Made by a program: the position numbers and the translations under genes. A model generated the notes under the pieces. That model did not search any database. It worked only from the letters and a program-made list of their open reading frames with translations, and was not told where the DNA came from. From positions 62,001 to 126,000 of the forward strand of contig NZ_BBYK01000059.1 in assembly GCF_001570365.1 (NCBI RefSeq): a stretch of 64,000 nt of DNA, in the 5' to 3' direction. The stretch is from Microtetraspora fusca (GTDB taxonomy: Bacteria > Actinomycetota > Actinomycetes > Streptosporangiales > Streptosporangiaceae). Below are positions 2,093 to 48,712 of this stretch, one piece after another. Every line of letters begins with the position of its first letter. Within the stretch, counting starts at the first letter, position 1.

Positions 2093-2857
2093 ATGGCCCA
2101 GCCGATGGTCAAGGCCGTGCAGGTGCACAAATCGTTCGGCCGAGTGAAAGTCCTGAACGGCGTCGACCTCGAGGTCGCCCCGCGCGAGGTGCTCTGCATC
2201 GTGGGGCCGTCCGGATCAGGAAAATCCACTTTCCTGCGATGCATCAATCATCTGGAGAAGATTGACGCCGGACAACTGTTCGTGGACGGCGAACTCGTCG
2301 GCTACGCGCGCCGCGGCGGGAAAATGCACGAACTCGGGGAACGTGCGGTCGCGGAACAGCGGAAGAACATCGGAATGGTCTTCCAGCGCTTCAATCTCTT
2401 TCCGCATATGACCGCTCTGGAGAATGTGATGGAAGCGCCGGTCCGGGTGCGCGGGGAATCCCGGGCGACCGCGCGCGAGCACGCCGTGAAGCTCCTCGAC
2501 CAGGTCGGGCTGTCCGCGCGGCGGGACATGTACCCCGCCCAGCTCTCCGGAGGCCAGCAGCAGCGCGTCGCGATCGCGCGGGCGCTGGCGATGCGGCCCA
2601 AGCTGATGCTCTTCGACGAGCCGACCTCCGCGCTCGACCCCGAGCTCGTCGGCGAGGTGCTCGACGTCATGCGCTCGCTCGCCGAGGACGGCATGACCAT
2701 GGTCGTCGTGACCCACGAGATGGGCTTCGCCCGCGAGGTCGGCGACGCGGTGGTCTTCATGGACGGCGGTGTCGTCGTGGAGTCTGGCCACCCCCGCGAC
2801 GTGCTGGTCAACCCGCGGCACGCGCGGACCGCGGCGTTCCTCTCCAAGGTGCTCTGA
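2093..2857 (+). CDS. Amino acid ABC transporter ATP-binding protein
   Basis: The 254-residue ATPase that energises the importer. Walker [10 protein letters not shown], the signature LSGGQQQR, Walker [13 protein letters not shown] and the switch His in VVVTHEMGF are all present. Length and motifs match the GlnQ/HisP group. AGGAAGG lies 8 bases before ATG 2093; an overlapping TTG at 2090 is less well placed. A 52-base spacer separates it from the permease, and the three genes read as one operon. The downstream IclR-type gene is convergent and may regulate the operon, which is inference only. Confidence 0.94.
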
Positions 2858-2956
2858 TCTACCCGGTCGAACCGATCCGGCCGCGCTCGCTCACCCTCGC
2901 GCCGCGTACCGGCGGCCCCGCCGGTCGGCGCGCGGGGCGCGGGCCGACCCGGAAAC

Positions 2957-2970
2957 GCCGCCTCGGCGGC
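2957..2970. terminator. Possible short terminator hairpin between convergent genes
   Basis: GCCGCC and GGCGGC are separated by two bases, between the ABC ATPase stop and the IclR-family stop. There is no T-run, so termination is only possible. Confidence 0.3.
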
Positions 2971-2982
2971 TGAAACCGCAGG

Positions 2983-3666
2983 TCAGCGGGTGAAACCGGG
3001 GAAGCCGAGCTCGGCGGACAGCGCCTGGGCGTGCTCGGCGACCGCCTTCGCGTAGGACGCCAGGTCCTCCTCGCTGATCCGGAACGACGGCCCGATGATG
3101 CTCAGCGCCGCCACGACACCGCCGGCCGAATCGTAGACCGGGGCGGCCGCCGCCGCGGCTTCCGGCTCGACCGCGGTACGCCGGGACACGGCGTACCCTC
3201 CCTCGGACAGCCGCCCGTTCAGCGCCGCGCCCACCGCCGTGCCGACCGTGGGGATGGCCCGGCCCGCCCAGGTCGCGTGCCGGATCGCGCGGGGGCTCTC
3301 GACCTGGCGCAGGTAGAGCGCGTGGCTGTCCCCCTCGGCGACGGCGAGATAGGCCGTCTCGCCGGTGAAGTCGGCCAGGTCGCGCAGGTGCGGCTCAGCG
3401 ATCTTGTAGACCGGCAGGTGCCCGAGCGCGATGGCGCCGGCCTGGAGCATCCGGGGGCCGGGGTGGTACAGCCCGGACGAGTCCCGCCAGGCGAAGCCGG
3501 ACAGTTCCAGCGCCTTGAGCAGGCGCGCGGCCGTGCTCAGGGCGAGCTCCGCCTCGCGTGCCGCCGCGGTGAGAGTGAGCCCGCCGGACGAGATGGCGAC
3601 GATGTGCGCCAATCGGAGCGCGCGTTCCACCGTGCGTATCGCCGTCGGCTCGGCACTTTCGGACAT
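2983..3666 (-). CDS. IclR-family transcriptional regulator
   Basis: A 227-residue regulator with an N-terminal winged helix (TVERALRLAHIVA, then LTLTAAAREAELALSTAARLLKALE) and an IclR effector domain (AYLAVAEGDSHALYLRQVESP; the later RISEEDLASYAKAV stretch). I placed the start at ATG 3666 (MSESAEP) because the upstream extension is Arg-rich and unlike the family. It is convergent with the amino acid importer. IclR proteins usually control neighbouring catabolic or transport genes in response to a small metabolite, but the ligand cannot be inferred. Its own promoter must lie in the AT-richer DNA after 3667. Confidence 0.88.
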   Translation of the reverse strand: MSESAEPTAIRTVERALRLAHIVAISSGGLTLTAAAREAELALSTAARLLKALELSGFAWRDSSGLYHPGPRMLQAGAIALGHLPVYKIAEPHLRDLADFTGETAYLAVAEGDSHALYLRQVESPRAIRHATWAGRAIPTVGTAVGAALNGRLSEGGYAVSRRTAVEPEAAAAAAPVYDSAGGVVAALSIIGPSFRISEEDLASYAKAVAEHAQALSAELGFPGFTR

Positions 3667-4451
3667 GCGCCCCCGTCTCCGCGAGAGATTCGTCGGCCTG
3701 GACACCGGTGCGCGTTTCCGTGCCGCAATTCCGATCTGCGACCTGGGCCACACCCGATCACGGGCTAAACCCGCGATTATTTAACTGTACCGCAGAATAT
3801 CATCGGTAAGCGTCATTCCCTCTCGATCCGGCCGCCCGCATATCCCGAGCCCGGGACGCGATTTCATCCTCGCCTTCACCTTGTACCGCGCTTAGTTCGC
3901 AATGTCGCCCCGACCCCTCCGAACCGCGTGATCCATGCGCTCCCCGCCGCCTGTGCGCCAACGCGGAGTCTCGCGACCTCCGACGTCGCCTTCCACACTC
4001 CGGCACTCAGGTTGAGCCCCTCCACCCTGTCCAAGTGCCGCCGGAGAAACACCGGGCCACGGGAAGCCGCCGCTCCATGACAAGGCGTGCCGGATGCGGC
4101 ACAGGGCCCGGGAACGGACAGAGTCGCGCACCTCATCGGCAAACCCGTTCCCGTCGGTGAACCCGCGCATCCGTACGACACAGCCACGACAGGCCGGAGC
4201 CGCCCCCACCCACCTGTCGCCGTTCGCCCAGTTCACGACGCGCAAAGGCGGCCACGAGCGAGAGTCAGGGGCCCGCCAAGACGGAGCAGGGGGCGCGCGA
4301 CCTGTCCAGAAGGTGACATCACCCTCAACCCCCGACTCCCGATGTCGCCATATTCCGGCCGATGACGACTATCGAAACCTTGCCGATCACCAGGCTTGAA
4401 GTAACTCTGAGTAATCAATCAGCAACCATGAGCGCCTGGAGGCACCCAGAT
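3667..4451. other. Long intergenic region, no gene seen
   Basis: This 785-base spacer between the divergent IclR regulator and the subtilase has open frames on both strands, but none gives a recognisable protein, ribosome-binding site or actinobacterial codon bias. It is AT-richer near 3770-3800 and 4400-4425, which fits promoter DNA for the two flanking genes. I see no RNA gene or repeat. Confidence 0.5.
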
Positions 4452-6278
4452 ATGAGAACCATCCCCCTGCTCGTACGGCTGGCCGCCGTAGGAGCGGCGT
4501 CGGCCACGCTGCTCACCGGCGCCGGTACCGGCGCCGCGGCGGCCGCGCCCCGGCCGCCCGTCCCCTCCGGCGTCATTCGCGCCGCGGGCTCCCCCTTCAG
4601 CATCCCGGGCCAGTACATCGTCGTGCTGAAGGACAACGCCGCCAACCGCAGGCGCGGGGCCGAGCGCCTCGCGCAGGACCTCGCCTCCCGGCACGGCGGC
4701 ACCGTGCACCAGGTGTTCCGCAACGTCATGATGGGCTTCGCCATCAAGTTGAAGCAGCCGGACGCCGAGCGGCTGGCTTCTGACGGAGCCGTCGATTACG
4801 TCGAACAGGACCAGCGGGTCACGGTCAACGACACCCAGCGCAACCCGACGTGGGGTCTGGACCGCATCGACCAGGCTTCTCTGCCGCTCAGCGGCACCTA
4901 CACCTACCCGACCACCGCGTCGGGCGTCCACGCGTACGTCATCGACACCGGCATCCTCACCACGCACAGCGACTTCGGCGGCCGGGCGAGCAGCGGGTAC
5001 GACTTCATCGACAACGACAGCGACGCGACCGACTGCCACGGCCACGGCACCCATGTGGCGGGCACCATCGGCGGCACGACATACGGCGTGGCCAAAGGGG
5101 TCAAGCTCGTCGCCGTCCGCGTGCTCGACTGCTCGGGCGGCGGCGCGGTCTCCGGCGTGATCGCGGGCGTCGACTGGGTCACGGCCCACGCGATCAAGCC
5201 CGCGGTGGCCAACATGAGCCTCGGCGGCGGCGCGAGCAGCACCCTCGACTCCGCCGTGCAGCGGTCCATCGCCTCTGGCGTCACATACGGCGTGGCCGCC
5301 GGGAACGACGGCGCGAACGCATGTGACTCCTCCCCCGCCCGGCTCCCCGAGGCGATCACGGTGGGTGCGACGGCCTCGAACGACGGGCGGCCGTCCTGGT
5401 CCAACTACGGGAGCTGCCTGGACGTCTTCGCCCCCGGCGACTCCATCACCTCTGACTGGTTCACCGGCCCCACCGCGACGAACACGCTCAGCGGCACGTC
5501 GATGGCCACCCCGCACGTCGTCGGCACGGCGGCGCTGATCCTCGGCCTCATGCCGTCGGCGACCCCGGCGCAGGTGGCCGCGACGATCGTGTCCCAGGCG
5601 ACCAACGGGAAGGTGACGAACGCGGGGAGCGGCTCGCCGAACCGGCTCCTCTACACCGGCACGCTCGGCGGCGCCGCGCCAAGCCCGTCGCCCACCCCCA
5701 CGCCGACCCCGACATCGGCCCCGACGCCGCCGAGCGGCACCAGGGTCTTCTCGGACGACTTCGAGACGCCCACCGGCTGGGTCACCAACCCCAATCTGAC
5801 CGACACCGCCTCCTTCGGCACGTGGATGCGCGCCCGGCCGGAGGCGACCAGCGTCAACGGCATCCCCACCCAGCTCGGCACCCCGACCAGCGGCAGCTAC
5901 GACCTGGTCACCGGCCCGTTCGCCGGAATGGACGCGGGCACCTGGGACATCGACGACGGTGTCACCACGATCCAGTCGCCGCCCATCAAGCTGCCCGCGT
6001 CCGGGAAGCTGACCCTCTCCCTGAACTGGTACTTCGCGCACCTCAACAACGCGTCGAGCGCCGACTACTTCCGGGTGCGCGTGGTCGGCTCCACCACATC
6101 CACGGTCCTGCGCCAGCTCGGCTCGCCGACGAACCGGCCGGCCGCGTGGGCCAAGGCCACCGCCGATATCTCCGCCCACGCCGGGCAGACCGTACAGATC
6201 GTCATCGACGCGGCGGACAACGCCGAGCCCAGCCTGGTCGAGGCCGCCGTCGACGACGTGCTGATCACGCGATCGTGA
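4452..6278 (+). CDS. Secreted subtilisin-like serine protease (S8) with C-terminal accessory domain
   Basis: A 608-residue secreted peptidase. The signal peptide (MRTIPLLVRLAAVGAASATL, cleavage near an AAAAAP stretch) precedes an inhibitor I9 propeptide beginning at QYIVVLKD. The S8 domain carries the triad Asp165 (VIDTGI), His198 (GHGTHVAGT) and Ser350 (GTSMATPH), so it should be active. A Pro/Ser/Thr linker near residue 420 leads to a C-terminal domain of about 175 residues rich in beta strands and aromatic residues, likely a jelly-roll binding module. Start ATG 4452 has GGAGG nine bases upstream; in-frame ATGs at 4428 and 4362 are less likely. It would act outside the cell in protein degradation. 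Confidence 0.93.
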   Translation: MRTIPLLVRLAAVGAASATLLTGAGTGAAAAAPRPPVPSGVIRAAGSPFSIPGQYIVVLKDNAANRRRGAERLAQDLASRHGGTVHQVFRNVMMGFAIKLKQPDAERLASDGAVDYVEQDQRVTVNDTQRNPTWGLDRIDQASLPLSGTYTYPTTASGVHAYVIDTGILTTHSDFGGRASSGYDFIDNDSDATDCHGHGTHVAGTIGGTTYGVAKGVKLVAVRVLDCSGGGAVSGVIAGVDWVTAHAIKPAVANMSLGGGASSTLDSAVQRSIASGVTYGVAAGNDGANACDSSPARLPEAITVGATASNDGRPSWSNYGSCLDVFAPGDSITSDWFTGPTATNTLSGTSMATPHVVGTAALILGLMPSATPAQVAATIVSQATNGKVTNAGSGSPNRLLYTGTLGGAAPSPSPTPTPTPTSAPTPPSGTRVFSDDFETPTGWVTNPNLTDTASFGTWMRARPEATSVNGIPTQLGTPTSGSYDLVTGPFAGMDAGTWDIDDGVTTIQSPPIKLPASGKLTLSLNWYFAHLNNASSADYFRVRVVGSTTSTVLRQLGSPTNRPAAWAKATADISAHAGQTVQIVIDAADNAEPSLVEAAVDDVLITRS

Positions 6279-6304
6279 CGGACGGCTGAGCACAGCCCCC
6301 GAAC

Positions 6305-6376
6305 GTCGGCCCGGCGCGGGGCCGACAGGAAAGACGGCCGGTGCGGCTCGCGTGAGCCGCACCGGCCGTCCTGTTT
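6305..6376. terminator. Strong bidirectional terminator between subtilase and ppdK
   Basis: A perfect 17-bp stem (6333-6349 with 6354-6370) has a 4-base loop and is followed by CTGTTT on the + strand; the reverse reading is followed by TTTCC. A smaller 8-bp hairpin (6305-6312 with 6319-6326) precedes it. Placement between two convergent stops fits termination of both genes. Confidence 0.88.
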
Positions 6377-6436
6377 CTCCCGTTTCCCACACGGGAGCCC
6401 GCCCGCGCACCACCGCACCGGGCGCGGGCGGGCGGC

Positions 6437-9073
6437 TCAGCGGGTGTCGGAGCCGTCGGAGGCGAGCGCCGCGCGCCCCGCCTCCAGCCGGGCCACCGCG
6501 ACCCGGAACGGCGAGCACGACACGTAGTCGAGGCCGATTTCGTGGCAGAAGTGCACCGACGCCGGGTCGCCTCCGTGCTCGCCGCAGATGCCGATCTTGA
6601 GGTCGGGGCGGGTGCGCCGGCCCTCCTCGACCGCGATCCGCATCAGGCGGCCGACGCCGTCCCGGTCGATCGACTCGAACGGCGAGACGCCGAAGATGCC
6701 GAGGTCCAGGTACTTGCCGAAGAACGCGCTCTCCACGTCGTCCCGTGAGAAGGCCCAGGTCATCTGGGTGAGGTCGTTGGTGCCGAAGGAGAAGAACTCG
6801 GCCGCCTCGGCGATCTGCCCGGCGGTGAGGGCCGCGCGCGGCACCTCGATCATCGTGCCGATCATCGCGTCCACGCCCTTGTCGGCGAGGATGCCCAGCG
6901 CCTCCTCGCGGACGCTCTCCAGCTCCTGCACCGCGCCCACCAGCGGGATCATGATCTCGGCCCGGGGGTTGGCGCTCTCCTTGGCCGCGTCGGCGATCGC
7001 GCGTACCTGCATCGCGAACAGGCCGGGGATGACCAGGCCGAGCCGCACGCCGCGCAGGCCGAGCATCGGGTTCTGCTCGTGCAACCGCTTGACCGCGTCG
7101 AGCAGCCTGCGGTCCTTCTCGTCGGCCGCGTCGCCGGCGAGCGCGATCTTGACGGCCAGCTCGGTGTAGTCGGGCAGGAACTCGTGCAGGGGCGGGTCGA
7201 TGAGCCGGACGGTGACCGGCAGGCCGTCCATCGCCGCGAAGATGCCGGCGAAGTCGGCCTTCTGCAGCGGTTCGAGCGCGTCCAGCGCCGCCTGCCGCTC
7301 CTCGTCGGTGGAGGCCAGGATCAGGTCCTCGACCAGCTTGCGCCGATCGCCGAGGAACATGTGCTCCGTACGGCACAGCCCGATGCCCTGGGCGCCGAAC
7401 GCGCGGGCGCGGGCGGCGTCCTCCGGCGTGTCGGCGTTGGCCCGTACGTCGAGGCGCCGTACGGCGTCGGCGTGCCGCATGATCCGGTCCACCGCGGCGA
7501 CCAGCTCGTCCTCGACCGGGCCGCCCTCGAAGTACTCCATCGCCGGCGAGGCCACCACGGGCACCTCGCCCAGGTAGACGGCGCCGGTGCTGCCGTCGAT
7601 CGAGATCACGTCGCCCTCGTTGACGACGACACCGCCTGGAGCGGTGAAACGGCCGGCGCGCGTGTCCACGACCAGTTCCTCGGCGCCGCACACGCAGGTC
7701 TTGCCCATGCCGCGGGCGACCACGGCCGCGTGCGAGGTCTTGCCGCCGCGCGAGGTGAGCACGCCCTGGGCGGCGATCATCCCGGCCAGGTCGTCCGGGT
7801 TGGTCTCCCGGCGGACGAGGATGACCGGCTCGCCCCGGCCCGCCAGTTCGACGGCCTTGGCCGAGGTGAAGACGGCCTTCCCCACGGCGGCGCCGGGCGA
7901 GGCGTTCATGCCCGTGGTGAGCCGGGTGTTGTCGGCGGTGGCGGAGAAGCGCGGGAACATGAGCTGCGCGAGCTGGTCGCCGGAGACGCGGCTGACCGCC
8001 TCGTCCATGTCGATCAGGCCCTCGTCCACGAGCTGCGTGGCGATGCAGAAGGCCGCGCCCGCCGTCCGCTTGCCGACCCGGGTCTGCAGCATCCAGAGCT
8101 TGCCGCGCTCGATGGTGAACTCGATGTCACACAGGTCGCGGTAGTGGTTCTCCAGCGTGCTCATGATGTCGAGCAGCTCGCGGTAGGAGGCGGGGTCGAT
8201 CCGCTCCAGCTCCTGCAGCGGCACGGTGTTGCGGATGCCGGCCACCACGTCCTCGCCCTGCGCGTTCTGCAGGTAGTCGCCGTACACGCCCTGCTGGCCG
8301 GAGCCGGGGTCCCGGGTGAAGGCGACGCCGGTGCCCGAGTCCATCCCGATGTTGCCGAAGACCATCGCGACGACGTTGACGGCCGTGCCGAGGTCGGCCG
8401 GGATGCGTTCCTGCCGCCGGTAGAGGACGGCCCGCGGCGCGTTCCACGAGTCGAAGACGGCCCTGATCGCCAGCTCCATCTGCTCACGCGGGTCCGAGGG
8501 GAACTCCCGCCCCTTCTGCTCCCGGACGATCCCCTTGTACGTCTCGACGAGGCGCTGGAGGTCGCCCGCGTCGAGGTCGGTGTCCTGGCGGGAGCCCTTC
8601 AGCTCGTCGAGCGCGGCCTCGAACAGCTCGCCCTCGATGCCGAGAACGGTCTTGCCGAACATCTGGATCAGCCGGCGGTAGGAGTCCCACGCGAAGCGCT
8701 CGTTGCCGGACTGCTTGGCCAGCCCGAGCACCGAGGCGTCGTTGAGGCCGATGTTGAGGACGGTCTCCATCATGCCGGGCATGGAGAACTTGGCGCCCGA
8801 CCGGACGCTGACGAGCAGCGGGTCGGCGGCGTCGCCGAGGCGCTTGCCCATCGTCGTCTCGAGGGCCTCGAGGTGGGTGGCGATCTCGGCGGCGAGACCG
8901 TCGGGGGCGTCGCCCTCGGCGAGGTAGTGCCGGCAGGCCTCGGTGGTGATCGTGAAGCCGGGGGGGACCGGGAGACCAAGATTGGTCATTTCCGCAAGAT
9001 TGGCGCCCTTTCCACCGAGCAGATCCTTGAGATCCTTGTTGCCCTCGGTGAAGTCATAAACAAACTTGCGCAC
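6437..9073 (-). CDS. ppdK: Pyruvate, phosphate dikinase
   Basis: An 878-residue enzyme interconverting pyruvate, ATP and phosphate with PEP, AMP and pyrophosphate in the cytoplasm. The N-terminal nucleotide-binding domain starts with GGKGANLAEM. The swivelling phospho-histidine domain has GGKTSHAAVVARG with the phosphorylated His at residue 448. The C-terminal PEP/pyruvate barrel has GLCRTEHMF and GICGEHGGDP with the catalytic Cys. Length is normal for the family. The start is GTG 9073: AAGGAG lies five to six bases before it, whereas the frame extends upstream to 9091 without a site. The long spacer upstream carries three DasR-like operators, suggesting control by an amino-sugar or related GntR-type regulator (inference). 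Confidence 0.96.
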   Translation of the reverse strand: MRKFVYDFTEGNKDLKDLLGGKGANLAEMTNLGLPVPPGFTITTEACRHYLAEGDAPDGLAAEIATHLEALETTMGKRLGDAADPLLVSVRSGAKFSMPGMMETVLNIGLNDASVLGLAKQSGNERFAWDSYRRLIQMFGKTVLGIEGELFEAALDELKGSRQDTDLDAGDLQRLVETYKGIVREQKGREFPSDPREQMELAIRAVFDSWNAPRAVLYRRQERIPADLGTAVNVVAMVFGNIGMDSGTGVAFTRDPGSGQQGVYGDYLQNAQGEDVVAGIRNTVPLQELERIDPASYRELLDIMSTLENHYRDLCDIEFTIERGKLWMLQTRVGKRTAGAAFCIATQLVDEGLIDMDEAVSRVSGDQLAQLMFPRFSATADNTRLTTGMNASPGAAVGKAVFTSAKAVELAGRGEPVILVRRETNPDDLAGMIAAQGVLTSRGGKTSHAAVVARGMGKTCVCGAEELVVDTRAGRFTAPGGVVVNEGDVISIDGSTGAVYLGEVPVVASPAMEYFEGGPVEDELVAAVDRIMRHADAVRRLDVRANADTPEDAARARAFGAQGIGLCRTEHMFLGDRRKLVEDLILASTDEERQAALDALEPLQKADFAGIFAAMDGLPVTVRLIDPPLHEFLPDYTELAVKIALAGDAADEKDRRLLDAVKRLHEQNPMLGLRGVRLGLVIPGLFAMQVRAIADAAKESANPRAEIMIPLVGAVQELESVREEALGILADKGVDAMIGTMIEVPRAALTAGQIAEAAEFFSFGTNDLTQMTWAFSRDDVESAFFGKYLDLGIFGVSPFESIDRDGVGRLMRIAVEEGRRTRPDLKIGICGEHGGDPASVHFCHEIGLDYVSCSPFRVAVARLEAGRAALASDGSDTR

Positions 9074-9196
9074 GCGAGCTCCTTCGGCCACTTCAATTAC
9101 ACGGGTCCGTCCGCATTCGCACTGTACCGAGCATCAACCCGGCGAAACATCACCAGTCGAGAGATATCGTGTTTACCCAGGTAGGAGGGCACATGG

Positions 9197-9208
9197 AGGT
9201 CTAATCCA
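9197..9208. promoter_or_regulatory. Weak DasR/GntR-like operator copy 1
   Basis: AGGTCTAATCCA matches 9 of 12 bases of the DasR-type consensus TGGTCTAGACCA. It is the weakest of three related elements in the ppdK/peptidase spacer and lies 124 bases from the ppdK start. Confidence 0.35.
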
Positions 9209-9255
9209 TTCCAGCCTAGATTAAAAACGAGCATTTTTCTCCGATCATCAAAGAG

Positions 9256-9267
9256 TGGTGTAAACCA
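9256..9267. promoter_or_regulatory. DasR/GntR-like operator copy 2
   Basis: TGGTGTAAACCA matches 10 of 12 bases of TGGTCTAGACCA and keeps both TGGT and ACCA half-sites. Its centre is about 51 bases from copy 3. Confidence 0.5.
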
Positions 9268-9306
9268 ATTCCATCCGACATTGGAGATCGTTCATCTCGC
9301 GTTAAT

Positions 9307-9318
9307 TGGTGTAGACCA
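9307..9318. promoter_or_regulatory. DasR/GntR-like operator copy 3
   Basis: TGGTGTAGACCA matches 11 of 12 bases of TGGTCTAGACCA. It lies 128 bases before the peptidase start at 9446 and could serve either divergent gene. Confidence 0.55.
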
Positions 9319-9445
9319 TTACGCTTTCGAGTGGCGTGCGGCTTTCGGGGGCGGGACACGGCGACCGGGTAACGGGAACACCGGAGGCATGGGGCCTAGG
9401 ATTGATCCACCCCTCCGAAGATGATCCGTAACGGAGGGTGTTCGC

Positions 9446-10942
9446 ATGTCACCAAAGTTCCGGCATATCGCCATCTCCGGACTCGTCGTACTCGCCGCGA
9501 TGGGCTGTGGGGCCGGCCGGACCGAGATCTCCCCCACCCGGGTGGACGGCGCCTCCACCATCGACCCGTCCCCGCAGTCCCTCAAGTGGGGGGCGTGCAC
9601 GGGCGTGCCCTCCTCCGCGGGCTTCCAGTGCGCCACGCTGAAGGTGCCGCTCGACTACGCGAAGCCGTCCGGCGAGACGATCGGCATCGCCCTCGTCCGC
9701 CGTCCCGCCATCGACAAGAAGAACCGGATCGGCTCGCTGGTCTTCAACTTCGGCGGGCCCGGCGGCTCCGGCGTGTCCACACTGCTCGACGCCGCGGGCG
9801 CCTTCTCCACGCTCAACAAGCGCTACGACCTGGTCAGCTTCGACCCCCGCGGGGTGGACGAAAGCAGCGGGATCAGGTGCCTGAACAGCGCCGAGCTGGA
9901 ACGGTACCTCGCCCGCGAGCCGAGCGCCGACACGGTCGAGGAGACCCACCTGCTCACCCAGTTCGCCAAGGCCTGCGAGCAGAACGCCGGGCACATCCTG
10001 CCGTACGTCGGCACCCTCAACGCGGCGCGGGACATGGAGGTCATGCGCGCCGCGCTCGGCGACCAGCACCTGAACTATTTCGGCTTCTCCTACGGCACCC
10101 ACCTGGGCGCCCTCTACGCGACGCTGTTCCCCAAGCAGGTGGGCCGCATGACGCTCGACTCCACGGTCGACCCGACTGTGGGGATGCTGGACACGGCCCG
10201 CACCCAGATCAAGGGCTTCCAGAAGGCGTACGGGAACTACCTCGCCGCCTGTGTGAAGCAGCCGAACGGGTGCCCGCTCGGCAAGACCACCAAGGCGGCG
10301 AACGCGGCCGTGCTCAAGCTCATCGACCGCCTTGAGGCGCACCCCGCCAAGTCGGGCGACCGCGAGGTCACCTCCACCGTCGCCAGGACCGCCGTCGCCC
10401 AGGCTCTCTACAGCAAGATGGCTTGGCCGCTGCTCACCGAGGCCCTGGATGAGGGGATGAAGGGCAACATGGCCGGGCTGCTGACCCTCGCCGACCAGTA
10501 CGGCGGGCGCCGCCCCGACGGGACGTACTCGACCCTGCAGATGTCACTGCCCGCCATCCTGTGCGCGGACACCACGGCCCGGCCGAGCATCGAGGAGTCG
10601 GAGAAGGCGGCGCACGAGCTCAAGAACGAGTCGCCCATCTTCGCCATCACCGCGGCCAGCTCGGGCATCTGCAGCGTGTGGCCCGTCCCGGGTGAGGACA
10701 CCAACCGGCACATCGACGCGTCCGGGGCCAATCCGATCGTGGTCGTCGGCGTGACCCACGACCCCGCCACGCCGTACGAGTGGGCGCCCAGGCTGACCGA
10801 GCAGCTGCGCAGCGCCGTCCTGGTGACGCTGAAGGGCGAGGGCCACGGCGCCTACGGGCAGAACAACCCGTGCGTGGACAACGCCGTCAACTCCTACCTG
10901 CTGGAGGGGAAGGTCCCGCCCAAGGGCCTGATCTGCTCCTGA
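9446..10942 (+). CDS. Secreted alpha/beta hydrolase, tripeptidyl aminopeptidase-like (S33)
   Basis: A 498-residue exported lipoprotein hydrolase of the SlpD/tripeptidyl aminopeptidase type. The lipobox LAAMGC is at residues about 16-21. The fold begins with LKVPLDYAKP and the oxyanion region FNFGGPGGSG; the nucleophile is Ser215 in GFSYGTHLG. The acid and His are expected in GVTHDPATPY and GEGHGAYG near the C-terminus, inside a TAP-like C-terminal domain. GGAGGG lies 7 bases before ATG 9446. It probably trims N-terminal tripeptides from extracellular proteins; the precise specificity is unknown. It stands alone and is followed by a strong hairpin. Confidence 0.9.
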   Translation: MSPKFRHIAISGLVVLAAMGCGAGRTEISPTRVDGASTIDPSPQSLKWGACTGVPSSAGFQCATLKVPLDYAKPSGETIGIALVRRPAIDKKNRIGSLVFNFGGPGGSGVSTLLDAAGAFSTLNKRYDLVSFDPRGVDESSGIRCLNSAELERYLAREPSADTVEETHLLTQFAKACEQNAGHILPYVGTLNAARDMEVMRAALGDQHLNYFGFSYGTHLGALYATLFPKQVGRMTLDSTVDPTVGMLDTARTQIKGFQKAYGNYLAACVKQPNGCPLGKTTKAANAAVLKLIDRLEAHPAKSGDREVTSTVARTAVAQALYSKMAWPLLTEALDEGMKGNMAGLLTLADQYGGRRPDGTYSTLQMSLPAILCADTTARPSIEESEKAAHELKNESPIFAITAASSGICSVWPVPGEDTNRHIDASGANPIVVVGVTHDPATPYEWAPRLTEQLRSAVLVTLKGEGHGAYGQNNPCVDNAVNSYLLEGKVPPKGLICS

Positions 10943-38456: not shown

Positions 38457-39151
38457 TGACAAGAAGTTACGCAATCGCCACCCTCGGTGCGATAGCCGAG
38501 GCACAATGGGGTCTCGTCACAGCAAGACAGGCAACGCGCAACGGTGTCTCCGCAGTGGAGCTGACGCGCCTGACGGACGACGGGGTTCTTGATCGTGTCG
38601 CATTCGGCGTCTACCGCCTGCCCGGCTCGCCTTCCGGCCCGCTCACCGAGCTTCGCGCGGCATGGCTCCAGCTCGACCCCGATACCGAAGCGGAAGCCCG
38701 TGGCATCGACTCGGGCGTCGTCTCGCACGGCAGCGCCTCGCTCGTCCTCGCTGTGGGGGACTTCACCGGCGATGTCCACGAGTTCACGTGTCCCAGGCGC
38801 AAGCGGTCCCGCCGCACCGACGTTAAGATCCACACCTCGCCCGTCCGGCTCGACGACATCGTGTGGCGTGACCAGCTTCCGGTCACCGCACCGGCACGAC
38901 TGGTCGGCGATCTGCTCGCGGATCGTCACGACGGTCAGCACATCTCCCATGTCGTGACGGACATCCTCGATCAGAGACTCGCCACGAGGAAGGAACTGGT
39001 ACACGCGGCGGCTCCGCATGCCGCCGCCTACGGCGTGACACCCGCCGGGGAGTTTCTCGACCACCTGATATCTCTCACCCGTCCTCCCACCCCCCGGAAG
39101 GCTCATGGAAACCCGCAGCGATCTGCCATACGCCTCCCCCCGTGCGCTTGA
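38456..39151 (+). CDS. abiEi: Type IV antitoxin AbiEi-like protein
   Basis: A 231-residue protein with an N-terminal winged helix (EAQWGLVTARQATRNGVSAV, LTRLTDDGVLDRVAFGVYRL) and an AbiEi C-terminal antitoxin domain (SHGSASLVLAVGD, IHTSPVRLDDIVW, LPVTAPARLVGDLLAD). It should repress its own operon and neutralise the toxin indirectly. The last 47 bases overlap the toxin gene in another frame. Codon use is less GC-biased than in neighbours, consistent with transfer. Confidence 0.87.
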   Translation: MTRSYAIATLGAIAEAQWGLVTARQATRNGVSAVELTRLTDDGVLDRVAFGVYRLPGSPSGPLTELRAAWLQLDPDTEAEARGIDSGVVSHGSASLVLAVGDFTGDVHEFTCPRRKRSRRTDVKIHTSPVRLDDIVWRDQLPVTAPARLVGDLLADRHDGQHISHVVTDILDQRLATRKELVHAAAPHAAAYGVTPAGEFLDHLISLTRPPTPRKAHGNPQRSAIRLPPCA

Positions 39152-40013
39152 CGCCGCGCTCACCGCCCGGTTCAAGAAGCTTTCGGCCGCACGCCCCCAC
39201 TCCATCTCCCAGATACGCCGGCAGTTCGCCTACGATCGCGCGCTCGCTCGGTGCTTCACCGGACCAAACGGTGATCGGTGGGTGCTCAAGGGCGGAATAT
39301 CCCTGCTCGCCCTACTCAGAGATGCTCGGCATTCCGCCGACCTGGATCTCGCCGCCGACGCGAGGGACACCGCGCAGGCGACGCAACTGCTTGGGGAGTC
39401 ACTTCAGCAGGATCTCGGCGACCACTTCTCGTTCCAGCTCGGGCACGGCCTCAAACTGATCGAGGGCATCGAGGGAGTGCGCGTCCCCGTGGTGGCGTTC
39501 CTCGGCCCTCGCCCATACGAGCGCTTCCACCTGGACGTGGTGATCGGGGCGACCGTCACCGGCAGTCTGGAGGAGGCCGACCCACTGGTGCCGGTTGGAA
39601 TTCCCGGACTGCGCCAGCCGAAGTACCAGCTCTATCCGCTGTGCGACACGCTGGCGGACAAGGTGTGCGCCATCATGGAGCGGCACGGCGACCGGCCGAG
39701 CACGCGTTTCCGCGACCTCGCCGACATCGTCCTCATCGCCAGGAGCCGTTCCATCGAAGCGGCCAAACTGAGTGCCGCGCTGACCTCTGAACGCCTGCTG
39801 CGGAAGAGCGGCCGGCATACGTCGCTCGACGTCCCGGATCAGATCATGTGGCGCGCCGGCTATGCCAAGGTCTCAGGAAACGCACCCGGACTTTACGGCT
39901 ATCGGGATCTGGAAGCCGCTCTCTCACTCGCGCGGGCCCTCGTCGATCCGGTGCTCGACGGCTCGATGCGCACCGGCCGGTGGAACCCGACAGCACTCCG
40001 CTGGGAGCCCTAG
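39105..40013 (+). CDS. abiEii: AbiEii-family nucleotidyltransferase toxin
   Basis: A 302-residue DUF1814-type nucleotidyltransferase. Motif I is LKGGISLL (residues 61-68), motif II SADLDL with Asp79 and Asp81, a further Asp at 144 (FHLDVV), and motif III DTLADKVCAI with Lys186. Relatives transfer nucleotides to tRNA or other targets and arrest growth; in phage defence they cause abortive infection. GGAAGG lies just before ATG 39105, inside the antitoxin gene. All catalytic residues are present, so the toxin should be active. Confidence 0.87.
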   Translation: METRSDLPYASPRALDAALTARFKKLSAARPHSISQIRRQFAYDRALARCFTGPNGDRWVLKGGISLLALLRDARHSADLDLAADARDTAQATQLLGESLQQDLGDHFSFQLGHGLKLIEGIEGVRVPVVAFLGPRPYERFHLDVVIGATVTGSLEEADPLVPVGIPGLRQPKYQLYPLCDTLADKVCAIMERHGDRPSTRFRDLADIVLIARSRSIEAAKLSAALTSERLLRKSGRHTSLDVPDQIMWRAGYAKVSGNAPGLYGYRDLEAALSLARALVDPVLDGSMRTGRWNPTALRWEP

Positions 40014-43620: not shown

Positions 43621-45849
43621 GTGGCGTCAAACGGTGGAAACCCCGATGAATCCCCGATAGGTGACGCCCTGCGCGAGGGGGATCCTCACCAGGCCGGGCC
43701 GTTCACCCTGCTCCGCCGGCTCGGCCAGGGCGGCATGGGCACCGTCTACCTCGGGCGCGCCCCCGACGGCGACCTGGTCGCGGTCAAGCTCATCCACCCC
43801 CAGTGGGCCGCCGACCCCGAATTCCGCCGCCGCTTCACCCGCGAGATCGCCGCGGCCCAGCGCGTCGCCCGCTTCTGCACCGCCCCCGTCCTGGCCGCCG
43901 ATGTCGAGGGCGACACCGCCTATCTCGTCACCGAATACGTCCCCGGGCCCACGCTCCAGCAGGCCGTACGCGAGCAGGGGCCGCTCAGCGGTTCGCACCT
44001 CGAGAGCGTCGCGGTGAGCGTCGCGGTCGCGCTGCAGGCCATCCACGCCGCCGGGATCGTCCATCGCGATCTCAAACCGGGGAACGTCCTGCTGTCCCCG
44101 CTCGGCCCCAAGGTGATCGACTTCGGCATCGCCCAGCTCGCCGAGGCCGGCGCCCACACCAGCAGCGCCATCGTCGGTACCCCCGCCTACATGCCCCCCG
44201 AACAGGCCCGAGGCGAACACGTCACCTCCGCCTCCGACATCTTCGCCTGGGGAGCCCTCGTCACCTACGCCGCCACGGGACACTCCCCCTTCGGCGACGG
44301 ACCGCCGCCCAGCGTCCTCTACCGCGTCGTCCACCACGAACCCGACCTCGCCGCGCTCGAACCCGACCTGCGCGCCCTCGTCGCCCAGGCACTGGCCAAA
44401 GACCCCGCCCACCGACCCACCGCCCAGCAGCTCATCGACGCCCTCACCCGCCACGCGCCGGTCGCTCAGGCCACCGCGGCGGGCCGTACGGGCGAGGAGA
44501 CGGGCGCCGAAGTCACGGGCGGGACGGCCGTCGCCCGCCGCAGCCCCCGGGTAGTCGCCGGAGCGGCGGCCGCCGCCGTGGCGCTCGTGACGGCCGGAGT
44601 CGTGATCGCCCTGCGGATCGGCCCGGCGGGCGGGGACGACGGCGGGCCTCCGTCGCAGGCCATCGGCTCGCAGAAGGTCCCCGTGTCGTCCACCGGCCCC
44701 GCCTCGGCCGCCTCCCCGGGTGGAGCGGGAGGCGGGACCGGCGGCGCTACGGACGGCGGGAAAGATCCGGCGACGGACGGCGCCGGTGGAGGCGTCAAGG
44801 ACGGCAACCCTCTGGGCGGGCAGGCGGTGCGGTTCTACGTCCGCCCCGACAGCGACGCGGCCGAGCAGGCGTCGATCTGGCAGGCGGACGGCCGGAAGGG
44901 CGACGCCGCCCTCATGCGGGCGCTCGCCCGGGTCCCGCAGTCGGTCTGGCTGGAGGCGCGCATGTCCGACGCCGACGCCGCCCGGGTCGTGAACGCGACG
45001 CTCGACGTGGCCGGGAAGCAGAAGGCCGTCGCCGTGTTCGTCACGGACGGCATCCCGGTGCGCGACTGCTACCCCAACGGCGCGCCCGACTCGCGGGCGT
45101 ACGCGTCGTGGATCGACGCGATCGCCACCGCCATCGGCGACCGCCCCGCCGTGGTCGTGCTGGAGCCCAACAGCCTGAGCAAGCTCCCGGGCGCGCCGGG
45201 CTGCTCCCTCGGAGGCCCCGACGGCGAGAAGAACCGTTTCGCCCAGCTCTCCGGCGCGGTCCGGCGGCTCGGCGCGCTGCCGAAGACCGCCGTCTACCTG
45301 GACGGCGGGCAACAGTACTGGCCCTCGATCGCGGACGCCGCGAGCCGCCTGATCAAAGCGGGGCTCGACCAGGCCGACGGGTACTTTCTCAACGCCTCCG
45401 GCTTCCAGCCGACCGCGGACGTCGAGGCGTACGGCGTCAGACTGGCCAAATGCGTCCATCTCATGAAGGAGCGCGCCGGGAGCCGCTGCCAGGCTCCGGA
45501 GATCGACACCGTCTCGAATGACACGCCGGGGCTGCCCCACTTCGTCATCGACACCGGCAGGAACGGCAGGGGTGAGTGGCGTCCGCCGGCCGGGAAGTAC
45601 AAACAGGCCCAGGAGTGGTGCAACCCGCCCGGCCGGGGCGTCGGCGCACGCCCCACGACGGACACCAGGAGCGGCCTGACCGACGCCTACCTGTGGCTCC
45701 GCGACCCCACCAAGTCGAACGGCACCTGCACGCGCGGCACCTCCGGCCCCGGGGATCCCGTCTACGGGCTCATGGCCCCGCACGGCGGCGCGTTCTGGCC
45801 GGACCTCGCCCTCCAGCGGGCCAAGAACGCCGTCCCGCCGCTGCGCTGA
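43621..45849 (+). CDS. Receptor-like Ser/Thr protein kinase with extracellular GH6 (pseudo-cellulase) domain
   Basis: A 742-residue one-pass membrane protein. Residues 28-280 are an intact Hanks-type kinase: P-loop GQGGMG (35-40), Lys56, HRDLKPGN with Asp150, DFG 167-169, activation segment to APE-like MPPEQ. A hydrophobic helix spans about 311-333, then a Gly/Ser/Thr-rich linker. Residues about 402-740 are a glycoside hydrolase 6 domain: FYVRPDSDAAEQA, IPVRDC (Asp482), HFVIDTGRNG, EWCNPPGRGVGARPTT, AYLWLRDP. The conserved catalytic-acid motif EPDSL reads EPNSL (Asn517), and the base-region ESDG reads KSNG (Asn700); the usual active-site Tyr before the RDC motif is also replaced. A sensor for cellulose-like glucan, not a hydrolase, is inferred. 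Confidence 0.9.
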   Translation: MASNGGNPDESPIGDALREGDPHQAGPFTLLRRLGQGGMGTVYLGRAPDGDLVAVKLIHPQWAADPEFRRRFTREIAAAQRVARFCTAPVLAADVEGDTAYLVTEYVPGPTLQQAVREQGPLSGSHLESVAVSVAVALQAIHAAGIVHRDLKPGNVLLSPLGPKVIDFGIAQLAEAGAHTSSAIVGTPAYMPPEQARGEHVTSASDIFAWGALVTYAATGHSPFGDGPPPSVLYRVVHHEPDLAALEPDLRALVAQALAKDPAHRPTAQQLIDALTRHAPVAQATAAGRTGEETGAEVTGGTAVARRSPRVVAGAAAAAVALVTAGVVIALRIGPAGGDDGGPPSQAIGSQKVPVSSTGPASAASPGGAGGGTGGATDGGKDPATDGAGGGVKDGNPLGGQAVRFYVRPDSDAAEQASIWQADGRKGDAALMRALARVPQSVWLEARMSDADAARVVNATLDVAGKQKAVAVFVTDGIPVRDCYPNGAPDSRAYASWIDAIATAIGDRPAVVVLEPNSLSKLPGAPGCSLGGPDGEKNRFAQLSGAVRRLGALPKTAVYLDGGQQYWPSIADAASRLIKAGLDQADGYFLNASGFQPTADVEAYGVRLAKCVHLMKERAGSRCQAPEIDTVSNDTPGLPHFVIDTGRNGRGEWRPPAGKYKQAQEWCNPPGRGVGARPTTDTRSGLTDAYLWLRDPTKSNGTCTRGTSGPGDPVYGLMAPHGGAFWPDLALQRAKNAVPPLR

Positions 45850-46326: not shown

Positions 46327-46381
46327 CCGTGGGCGTCGTCGCCGATCCGTCCGTCGCCCGCCATATCAAGGGATGATCCCG

Positions 46382-48712
46382 ATGCGCCTCTCTCCCGCCG
46401 CGCTGACCCTGCGCGCGCTCATGACCGACCCGGACACCACCGGCGACCCATGGTTTGAGAAGTCCTACCTGACCGCTTCCGACCTGGGCGCGCTCCTGCC
46501 GTACGCGTACCGGACGACGGGGAGCGGAGGCACGTCCATGTCGGCGAGGTTCGTGGTGGAGGACGCCGTCAAGGAGCGCCAGCCGTCGTTCACGCCGGAG
46601 GCGTGCGCCGGCCTGTTCCTGGCCCTCGTGGACGGGCTGCCGGAGCGCCAGTGGTCCAACCTTCCCCTGGCCGCGGCGGCGTTGGTGCGCTGCCCCGACG
46701 GCCCGCCACGCGCCGACCTCGCCGAGCCCGCGCGGGCGTTGGTGCGCTTCCACCTCGGCTCGCGCCGCCTGGAGCACCCGCACGCGCTGCTGGCGGTCGC
46801 CGGGCTCGCCGGGCTGGACGACGAGGTGGCCGCGGTGCTCAAGACCGGGCCGGGTCCGATCGCCACGGGCGAGATCGACCTGCTGCTCGGCTGGGAGGCG
46901 GAGCGCCGGGCCCTGCTGGCCGAGATCGTCGAGAGGAGCTACGGCTGCCCTCCCCCGCTGCCCGACGCCTGGGAGCGGCTGGCCGCGATCCCGGAGTACG
47001 CGGCCTTCGCCCGCTCCGCCCTGGAAGTGGCCGACACCAGGGTCGCCGCCATCCACGCGGGCGAGATCCCCTATCGCGCCGACCGCGCCTTCGACGACGG
47101 GGAGAAGACCGTGCTCGGCCGGGCCGTACGGCTGGCGCTGCGGCAGGACGAACCGTGGCTGCCCGACCTGTTCGACCGGCTGGCGCGCGGCGTGGCGGTG
47201 GCGCCCACCACGGCGCGCACGCTGCCCTCCCAGGGCCTGCTGTACGAGATGGCCCGCGCCGCGGAGGAGTTCCCGACCCCGGAGGCGGTCGGCGCGCTGC
47301 GGGCCGCGCGGGAGGTGACGCGGCACGCGGGCGTGCCCAAGCAACTCGACCGCACGCTCAAGCGGATCGAACAGGCGCTGGCCGATCGGGTCGAGGTGGC
47401 CTTCCGGATGCCGGACCTCGGGTTCGAGCCGGGCGGGCGGCTCCGCGTGCCCGTCGGCGGGCACGCGGCCGTGATCTCCGTCGGCGACGACGTCGAGCTG
47501 GCCTGGTGGCAGGGCGACAAGCGGCTCAAGGGGGTGCCCGCGGCGGTACGGCGGGACCATGCCGACGAGGTCAAGCGCCTGCGCGACCTGACGGGGCGAG
47601 CCCGCCGGCAGCTCACCACGCTGATCCGCGCGCTGGAGGCGGGATTCCCCGGCGAGACGGCCCATCCGTACGCGACCTGGCGGGAGCGGCTGGCCGACCA
47701 TCCGATCGCCGGGACGGTCGCACGGCGGCTGATCTGGGAGATCGAGGTCTCCCCCGGGCGACGGGTGAGCGTACTGGGCGGCGCCACGGACGCCGACATC
47801 GCCGGAATCACCGGGGTCGCGCCGCCGCCCGACGCCCCGGTCCGGCTGTGGCATCCGGTCCGCGCCTTTCTGGACGACGTACGCGCGTGGCGCGAACGGA
47901 TCAGTGAGGACCGGATCAGGCAGCCGTTCAAGCAGGCGTTCCGCGAGATCTACCCGCTCACCCCCGCCGAGGAGCGCACCGGCGTCTACTCCAACCGGTT
48001 CGCCGCCCACGTGGTGGACTACCGGAAGCTGTACGCGCTGTTCAAGCAGCGCGGCTGGGCGGCCGACATGCTGGGCCCGTGGGACGGCGGCAGCCACGGG
48101 ACGGCCCGGCGCATGCTCGCCGGCGGACGCTGGCAAGCGTTGTTCCTCCACGAGGCCGACGGATCGGGCGAGCACGCCACCACCGACCAGATCCGCTTCC
48201 ATCGCAACGAAGACGGCGAATGGCGGCAGGCGGCGCTCAGCGAGGTGCCGCCGCTGGTGTTCAGCGAGGCGATGCGGGATGTGGACCTGTTCGTCGCGGT
48301 CACGTCGATCGCCACCGATCCCGGGTGGGCCGACCGCGGCGACGCCCGCCGCGACGACTACTGGCACACGGCCGCCTTCGGCCCGCTGCCGCCTTCGGCG
48401 GAGGTCCGTCGGGACGCGCTGGCCCGCCTGCTGCCGCGCACCGCGATCGCGGAGCGCTGCGTCCTGACGGACCGCTACCTGCAGGTCCGGGGCGATCTGC
48501 GGAGCTACCGGATCCATCTGGGCAGCGCCAACATCCTCATGGACCCCGGCGACGTCTACCTGTGCATCGTCAGCGCCCCGGACGCGGCCGACGACGTCTT
48601 CCTGCCGTTCGAGGAGGACGGGCGACTCGGGCTGATCCTCAGCAAGGCGTTCCTACTGGCCCGCGACAGCGAGATCGAGGACGAGACCATCCTGCGGCAA
48701 ATCAAGGGGTGA
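46382..48712 (+). CDS. DUF4132-domain protein
   Basis: A 776-residue cytoplasmic protein. The N-terminal half is helical and repeat-like; the C-terminal half (from about residue 430) is DUF4132, with LADHPIAGTVARRLIWEIE and RQPFKQAFREIYPLTPAE as hallmarks. Members include MolR-like proteins of unknown biochemical role. AAGGGA lies eight bases before ATG 46382; the in-frame ATG at 46373 overlaps that site. I infer an operon with the preceding small gene. Confidence 0.85.
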   Translation: MRLSPAALTLRALMTDPDTTGDPWFEKSYLTASDLGALLPYAYRTTGSGGTSMSARFVVEDAVKERQPSFTPEACAGLFLALVDGLPERQWSNLPLAAAALVRCPDGPPRADLAEPARALVRFHLGSRRLEHPHALLAVAGLAGLDDEVAAVLKTGPGPIATGEIDLLLGWEAERRALLAEIVERSYGCPPPLPDAWERLAAIPEYAAFARSALEVADTRVAAIHAGEIPYRADRAFDDGEKTVLGRAVRLALRQDEPWLPDLFDRLARGVAVAPTTARTLPSQGLLYEMARAAEEFPTPEAVGALRAAREVTRHAGVPKQLDRTLKRIEQALADRVEVAFRMPDLGFEPGGRLRVPVGGHAAVISVGDDVELAWWQGDKRLKGVPAAVRRDHADEVKRLRDLTGRARRQLTTLIRALEAGFPGETAHPYATWRERLADHPIAGTVARRLIWEIEVSPGRRVSVLGGATDADIAGITGVAPPPDAPVRLWHPVRAFLDDVRAWRERISEDRIRQPFKQAFREIYPLTPAEERTGVYSNRFAAHVVDYRKLYALFKQRGWAADMLGPWDGGSHGTARRMLAGGRWQALFLHEADGSGEHATTDQIRFHRNEDGEWRQAALSEVPPLVFSEAMRDVDLFVAVTSIATDPGWADRGDARRDDYWHTAAFGPLPPSAEVRRDALARLLPRTAIAERCVLTDRYLQVRGDLRSYRIHLGSANILMDPGDVYLCIVSAPDAADDVFLPFEEDGRLGLILSKAFLLARDSEIEDETILRQIKG

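Follow-up and report, generated by a model that had tools for sequence, protein, structure and literature searches.

A family of actinomycete Ser/Thr protein kinases with a GH6 domain that has lost its catalytic residues: probable glycan-sensing pseudoenzyme receptors

A single open frame in the window (the whole 64 kb stretch of Microtetraspora fusca DNA that was analysed) encodes a Ser/Thr protein kinase joined by one predicted membrane helix to a glycoside hydrolase family 6 (GH6) domain that has lost its catalytic residues. The 742 aa product is probably a glycan-sensing pseudoenzyme receptor, that is, a single-pass kinase in which the GH6 fold serves as a binding module and hydrolysis has been given up. 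More tentatively, with confidence somewhat short of even, we propose that the ectodomain of these actinomycete receptor kinases is a former cellulase that now senses cellulose or beta-glucan. Such a receptor would detect insoluble polysaccharide directly at the cell surface and signal by Ser/Thr phosphorylation; it would act ahead of the intracellular cellobiose repressor CelR/CebR and independently of it.

The preliminary description of this DNA had read an intact kinase, one membrane helix and a GH6 domain from this frame. The Pfam and hydropathy results agree (Table 1) and support a receptor-like topology. In the Pfam scan, Pkinase matched residues 29-272 (E 5.5e-42) and Glyco_hydro_6 (PF01341) matched residues 423-706 (E 1.7e-48; 166.5 bits against a cut-off of 27), a score that places the C-terminal domain in GH6 as a fold and sequence family. 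The motifs GQGGMG, VAVK, HRDLKPGN and DFG identify the N-terminal domain as a Hanks-type Ser/Thr kinase. Its best solved-chain match was PknB, followed by PknA and StkP. The top NCBIfam model was AfsK, at 230 bits against a cut-off of 1300 and over residues 17-318 only, so that the protein does not belong to the AfsK equivalog.

Apart from the membrane helix, the hydropathy scan flagged a second segment at residues 129-147, but this lies inside the kinase domain. A single helix between kinase and GH6 domain was found in 73 of 83 relatives, with the N-terminal side more positive in 71 of these 73. Among the other ten, three have no segment over the threshold, four have a segment beyond a mis-set domain start and three have one or two extra segments. 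By hydropathy, the protein thus has one helix between the kinase and the outer domain and its positive side inside, as in single-pass receptor kinases. This layout is known from Hanks-type receptor kinases such as PknB, PknD and AfsK, which share with the present protein an inner kinase with intact motifs, one helix and an outer domain. In the known kinases of this type the outer domain consists of PASTA repeats or a beta-propeller, whereas here it has a glycoside hydrolase fold.

Table 1. Features of the receptor gene, in positions of the window
Feature	Positions	Strand	Evidence
Kinase - membrane helix - pseudo-GH6 receptor gene, 742 aa	43621..45849	+	GTG start, open frame and Pfam
Ser/Thr protein kinase domain, residues 29-272, PknB/AfsK-like; Lys, HRD Asp and DFG Asp intact	43705..44436	+	Pfam, NCBIfam, solved-chain matches, family alignment
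Single predicted membrane helix, residues 311-329, kinase-facing side positive	44551..44607	+	Hydropathy only
Gly/Ser/Thr-rich linker, residues 330-401 (72 residues), predicted extracellular	44608..44823	+	Translation and hydropathy
GH6 domain, residues 402-742, catalytic residues lost	44824..45846	+	Pfam, 1TML alignment, family alignment
Asp476 at T. fusca Cel6A Tyr73 position	45046..45048	+	1TML alignment, family alignment
Asp482 of RDC at T. fusca Cel6A Asp79 position; kept in the window protein, Asp in 57/84	45064..45066	+	1TML alignment, family alignment
Asn517 (AAC) at catalytic acid Asp117 position	45169..45171	+	1TML alignment, family alignment, codon read
Asn700 (AAC) at Asp265 position	45718..45720	+	1TML alignment, family alignment, codon read

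We aligned the GH6 domain by HMMER to T. fusca Cel6A (1TML) and M. tuberculosis Cel6 (1UP0) and counted residue numbers along the alignment. Asp117, Asp265, Tyr73 and Asp79 of T. fusca Cel6A are the residues that we take to act in GH6 catalysis. EPNSL stands opposite EPDLI of 1TML, which contains Asp117, and KSNG opposite EADG, which contains Asp265. The replacement of both catalytic Asp by Asn that had been claimed earlier is thus borne out, and direct reading confirmed both AAC codons. The same holds for the reported loss of the active-site Tyr and retention of the RDC Asp, with Asp476 opposite Tyr73 and Asp482 opposite Asp79. Among the further cleft positions, Arg694 replaces T. fusca Lys259 and Gly594 replaces Asn190. 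Codons, Pfam hits and the 84 genes described below agree, which rules out chance or misreading as the source of the catalytic losses.

With these two endoglucanases the receptor shares the sequence family and, weakly, the predicted fold; it differs from them in the lost catalytic residues, the membrane tether and the fused kinase. An AlphaFold2 model of the domain built from three sequences was poor (mean pLDDT 52.7, pTM 0.56, residues 248-347 of 347 below 50). Its top 27 Foldseek matches were all GH6 structures or GH6-based scaffolds, including 1TML (E 1.8e-12; TM 0.47 by query and 0.55 by target; rmsd 11.4). At this model quality, the prediction resembles the GH6 fold weakly.

We searched for the same architecture in 341 genomes of the same GTDB family, 124 of which gave matches to the GH6 domain with E <=1e-20. 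The search yielded 84 kinase-GH6 genes, the window's own included, and two fragments at contig edges, in 70 genomes. Both fragments look like the 84 kinase-linked genes; they are outside counts over 84 and inside counts over 86. A gene was called kinase-linked if it scored >50 bits to the window kinase. One gene, L132, passed narrowly, as part of its kinase lies in another frame (genome G076, contig C44; kinase part 4104-4859, rest 2722-4692), which points to a broken gene or a sequencing error. It is also the one exception among the 84 in which the kinase Lys and both Asp are not all kept. Identical frames, the window's own copy (L084, present as QUERY) and the L085_1131 and L086 rows, which duplicate or truncate genes already included, were left out before counting. 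The comparators were 24 kinase-free GH6 genes, comprising the 17 nearest and seven weaker matches; the other GH6 gene of the window's genome (L001) was outside the alignment. Further pseudo-GH6 genes or fusions could exist among the weaker GH6 matches outside this comparison.

In an order-level search of 345 genomes, only four of which lie beyond the 341, all 87 genomes with matches at E <=1e-70 belonged to the same GTDB family. In a class sample of 394 genomes, matches outside the family at E <=1e-40 came from seven genomes of one genus, and the one of these that was read carries a kinase-free GH6 gene with EPDSL, ESDG and YNVPGRDC intact. Among the best 80 of 531 matches, the gene of Microtetraspora niveoalba was the sole full-length one; the others were listed with query residues up to 360.

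None of the 84 kinase-linked genes keeps all four catalytic residues, whereas all 24 kinase-free relatives do. The acid position (517) is Asn in 34, Ser in 22, Gly in 19, Ala in three, Asp in two, Gln in two, Lys in one and Glu in one, and is thus non-Asp in 82 of the 84. The Asp265 position is Asn in 42, Ser in 25, Asp in 11, Gly in four and Thr in two; Tyr is kept at the Tyr73 position in five. Asn at both the acid and the Asp265 site occurs in only 21 of 86 rows. By the alignment, the double Asn is a detail of one clade and not a rule of the family. The preliminary description had named orthologues with Asp at both sites as evidence against its reading. One of the 86 (L090, genome G082) has them, yet its RDC Asp and its Tyr are gone, and no member looks catalytically complete.

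The rest of the domain was better preserved. Across 60 columns invariant in the 24 kinase-free relatives, mean retention in the 86 rows was 0.79 overall but 0.22 in the four catalytic columns, and random draws of four columns gave so low a retention with p about 0.001. Of the two residues that directly precede the lost acid, Glu515 is retained in 85 of 86 and Pro516 in all 86; Asp561, Trp653, Trp666, Arg647 and Asn648 are unchanged in 86. This pattern indicates, at the level of the aligned sequences, that catalytic loss was targeted on a retained scaffold and extends to further cleft positions.

In a tree calculated without the four catalytic columns, a single branch (SH-aLRT 99) separates the 86 kinase-linked rows from the 24 kinase-free rows, and one step suffices for the change of architecture. 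The tree is quick, made without a mixture model, unrooted and subject to a long-branch warning, and is therefore by itself silent on which state came first. On the sequence relationships, the ectodomain and the secreted GH6 cellulases have a common ancestor; the term 'secreted' rests on an N-terminal hydrophobic segment found in 18 of the 24 kinase-free relatives.

The nearest of these relatives are 17 GH6 genes from as many genomes of two genera (g55 and g63), whose domains are 46-49% identical to that of the receptor. Unlike the receptor genes, they carry no kinase and keep all four catalytic residues; 15 of the 17 begin with a signal-like hydrophobic segment. We searched for the CelR/CebR box TGGGAGCGCTCCCA, as given in part of PMC4898821 (for background on CelR, see the CelR passages of PMC3377646). 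A perfect box lies 5' of 19 of the 24 kinase-free relatives, and none of the 17 nearest lacks it. With up to two mismatches allowed, the box was absent from the available sequence 5' of all 84 receptor genes (>=400 bp for 59 of them), from the whole 64 kb window and from 20 wider receptor loci. We dropped the idea that CelR controls the receptor gene, which does not belong to the CelR/CebR regulon by this search.

A GH48 gene lies directly 3' of the receptor gene, on the same strand, in five of the 70 genomes (genera g43 and g45), its presumed start 294-433 bases past the receptor stop. In these genomes a perfect CelR box stands between the two genes and a box with one mismatch just past the presumed GH48 start. 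In the two of the five cases that were scanned, the GH48 protein has the domain order CBM2 - Big_7 - GH48. At loci L120 and L134 of these genera, an additional Ser/Thr kinase gene upstream (5686-6999 and 5715-7001, respectively, both on the minus strand) gives a row of kinase, receptor and GH48.

A cellulase neighbourhood as a general rule was rejected, as it occurs only in g43 and g45; the 20 loci scanned for neighbours came from other genera. The commonest families among the 116 neighbour genes of these loci were leuA, TetR, MFS, GNAT and two-component genes; polysaccharide deacetylase occurred in four of the 116, and no glycoside hydrolase was among the 25 families listed of 91. GH48 is present in 59 of the 70 receptor genomes and in 140 of the 271 others. 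This association is confounded by kinship: within g39, the largest carrier genus (G136-G189), GH48 was found in 32/37 against 13/17 genomes (p 0.44) and the association vanishes.

A beta-1,4-glucan ligand is plausible; we infer it from the CelR boxes of the 17 nearest active relatives and from the five genomes with GH48 3' of the receptor. For the suggestion that the receptor binds cellulose and switches on cellulases, our evidence is circumstantial, with no CelR box near the other loci examined.

In the mechanism that we propose, a glycan, most likely beta-1,4-glucan or a cello-oligosaccharide, would bind the ectodomain outside the cell. Binding would pair or reorient two receptors, and the inner PknB/AfsK-like kinase domains would phosphorylate each other and then cytoplasmic targets. 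Receptor pairing and trans-phosphorylation are the mode of other receptor kinases of this type. We infer the topology from hydropathy and general knowledge of such kinases, and activation by dimerization by analogy with related kinases; the ligand and the output are proposals only. To our knowledge, few bacterial Ser/Thr kinases have an identified outside signal. The present ectodomain derives from enzymes whose ligands and crystal structures are known, which makes the ligand question directly testable here.

The closest working analogue is the anti-sigma factor RsgI6 of Clostridium thermocellum. Passages of one report describe a GH10 ectodomain with very low activity that has retained polysaccharide binding and through which this single-pass regulator, which controls genes for polysaccharide degradation, senses the outside (PMC4711584). 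RsgI6 differs from the receptor in having a GH10 rather than a GH6 domain outside, an anti-sigma domain rather than a kinase inside, and a clostridial rather than an actinomycete host; we claim no homology. The N-terminus of the receptor is a kinase, and the Pfam scan gave no RsgI N-terminal anti-sigma domain, but the receptor may still work like an RsgI-type biomass sensor. If the reading is correct, the receptor would join RsgI6 as the second example of a sensor recruited from among polysaccharide-degrading enzymes. It could also reveal how these actinomycetes perceive insoluble plant material at a stage when soluble cellobiose has yet to reach CelR/CebR.

Both receptor kinases and sensors derived from enzymes have precedents; their combination here appears to be undescribed. 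As the preliminary description had supposed, none of the openly accessible papers listed in searches for kinase-glycoside hydrolase fusions described one. A survey from 2012 that covered GH6 and CelR sites in actinobacteria mentions, in its passages on kinases, protein kinases near CelR sites and no fusion to GH6 (PMC3377646).

The ligand might instead be a glycan of the cell's own envelope, such as a cellulose-like polymer at the hyphal tip, and the receptor might be coupled to growth control as AfsK is to polarity. AfsK is the best NCBIfam model of the kinase domain, though far under its cut-off, the receptor-gene sequence examined holds no CelR boxes, and the commonest neighbours are not cellulose genes. 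In Streptomyces, according to passages of PMC13432765, the phosphorylation of the glucan synthase CslA is influenced by PknB, and DivIVA is a substrate of AfsK. We nevertheless regard an own-glycan ligand as rather unlikely. PF09118 belongs to the GlxA-type oxidase, the partner of CslA. It occurs in only three of the 70 receptor genomes and is absent from the window's own, which lowered a sensor of the CslA/GlxA tip glycan as the main idea. Moreover, PF09118 lies beside another GH6 gene in ten genomes, and the three such GH6 genes that were read (L188, L189 and L192) are catalytically complete. This arrangement of GH6 beside a GlxA-type oxidase is presumably that of the Streptomyces cslZ-glxA region.

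It is unlikely, too, that the GH6 fold has come to bind a protein or small molecule in a remodelled cleft. The earlier claim that the binding cleft remains held in part: Asp561, Arg647, Asn648 and Trp666 are kept, but the equivalent of T. fusca Lys259 (694) is kept in none of the 86, that of Asn190 (594) in two and that of the -2 Trp, Trp41 (443), in 38, being lost in 48. These three we take to be substrate-binding positions, and since they have changed too, the ligand may have changed. Against a non-glycan ligand stand the five invariant residues Trp653, Trp666, Asp561, Arg647 and Asn648, together with Trp567, which is kept in 83%.

We consider it very unlikely that the domain is a slow hydrolase, a tethered enzyme that uses other acids. 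Asp482 and Asp561 are present in the window protein, and some members keep the Asp265 equivalent (11/84) or the acid Asp (2/84), but the four-residue set is found in no member and the Asp117 and Asp265 equivalents are both absent in 74 of 86.

Over 16 close pairs, the catalytically dead GH6 domain had a dN/dS ratio of 0.11-0.59; five kinase-free pairs gave 0.14-0.38. The ratio of the membrane and linker region was 0.17-0.93 and exceeded 0.5 in 11 of 15 pairs. These values come from a simple counting method and from pairs picked for closeness. By this measure, the GH6 ectodomain is held by purifying selection. The claim that the Asp-to-Asn changes reflect selection stood as far as the domain is maintained (dN/dS <1) and was not supported for Asn itself, as eight residues occur at position 517. 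A decaying remnant beside a kinase that works alone is disfavoured and highly improbable: catalytic and several cleft residues are lost, but dN/dS is <0.6 in all 16 pairs, the GH6 domain is in frame in all 84 genes and many of its Cys, Trp and core residues do not vary.

Two further genes of the window lie close to the receptor gene. Three called genes 5' of it, positions 39105-40010 (+) encode an AbiEii-family nucleotidyltransferase (PF08843), a toxin-type gene; next but one 3' of it, positions 46373-48709 (+) encode a DUF4132/DUF7737 protein. A protein similar by eye to the latter lies 3' of a receptor pair in M. niveoalba (L004), whose tandem copies occupy 5965-8238 and 8261-10441. Tandem receptor copies also occur at L114, L117, L118 and L128. 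Such copies differ in their catalytic motifs, e.g. KSNG and VSSG in M. niveoalba, and may have different ligands.
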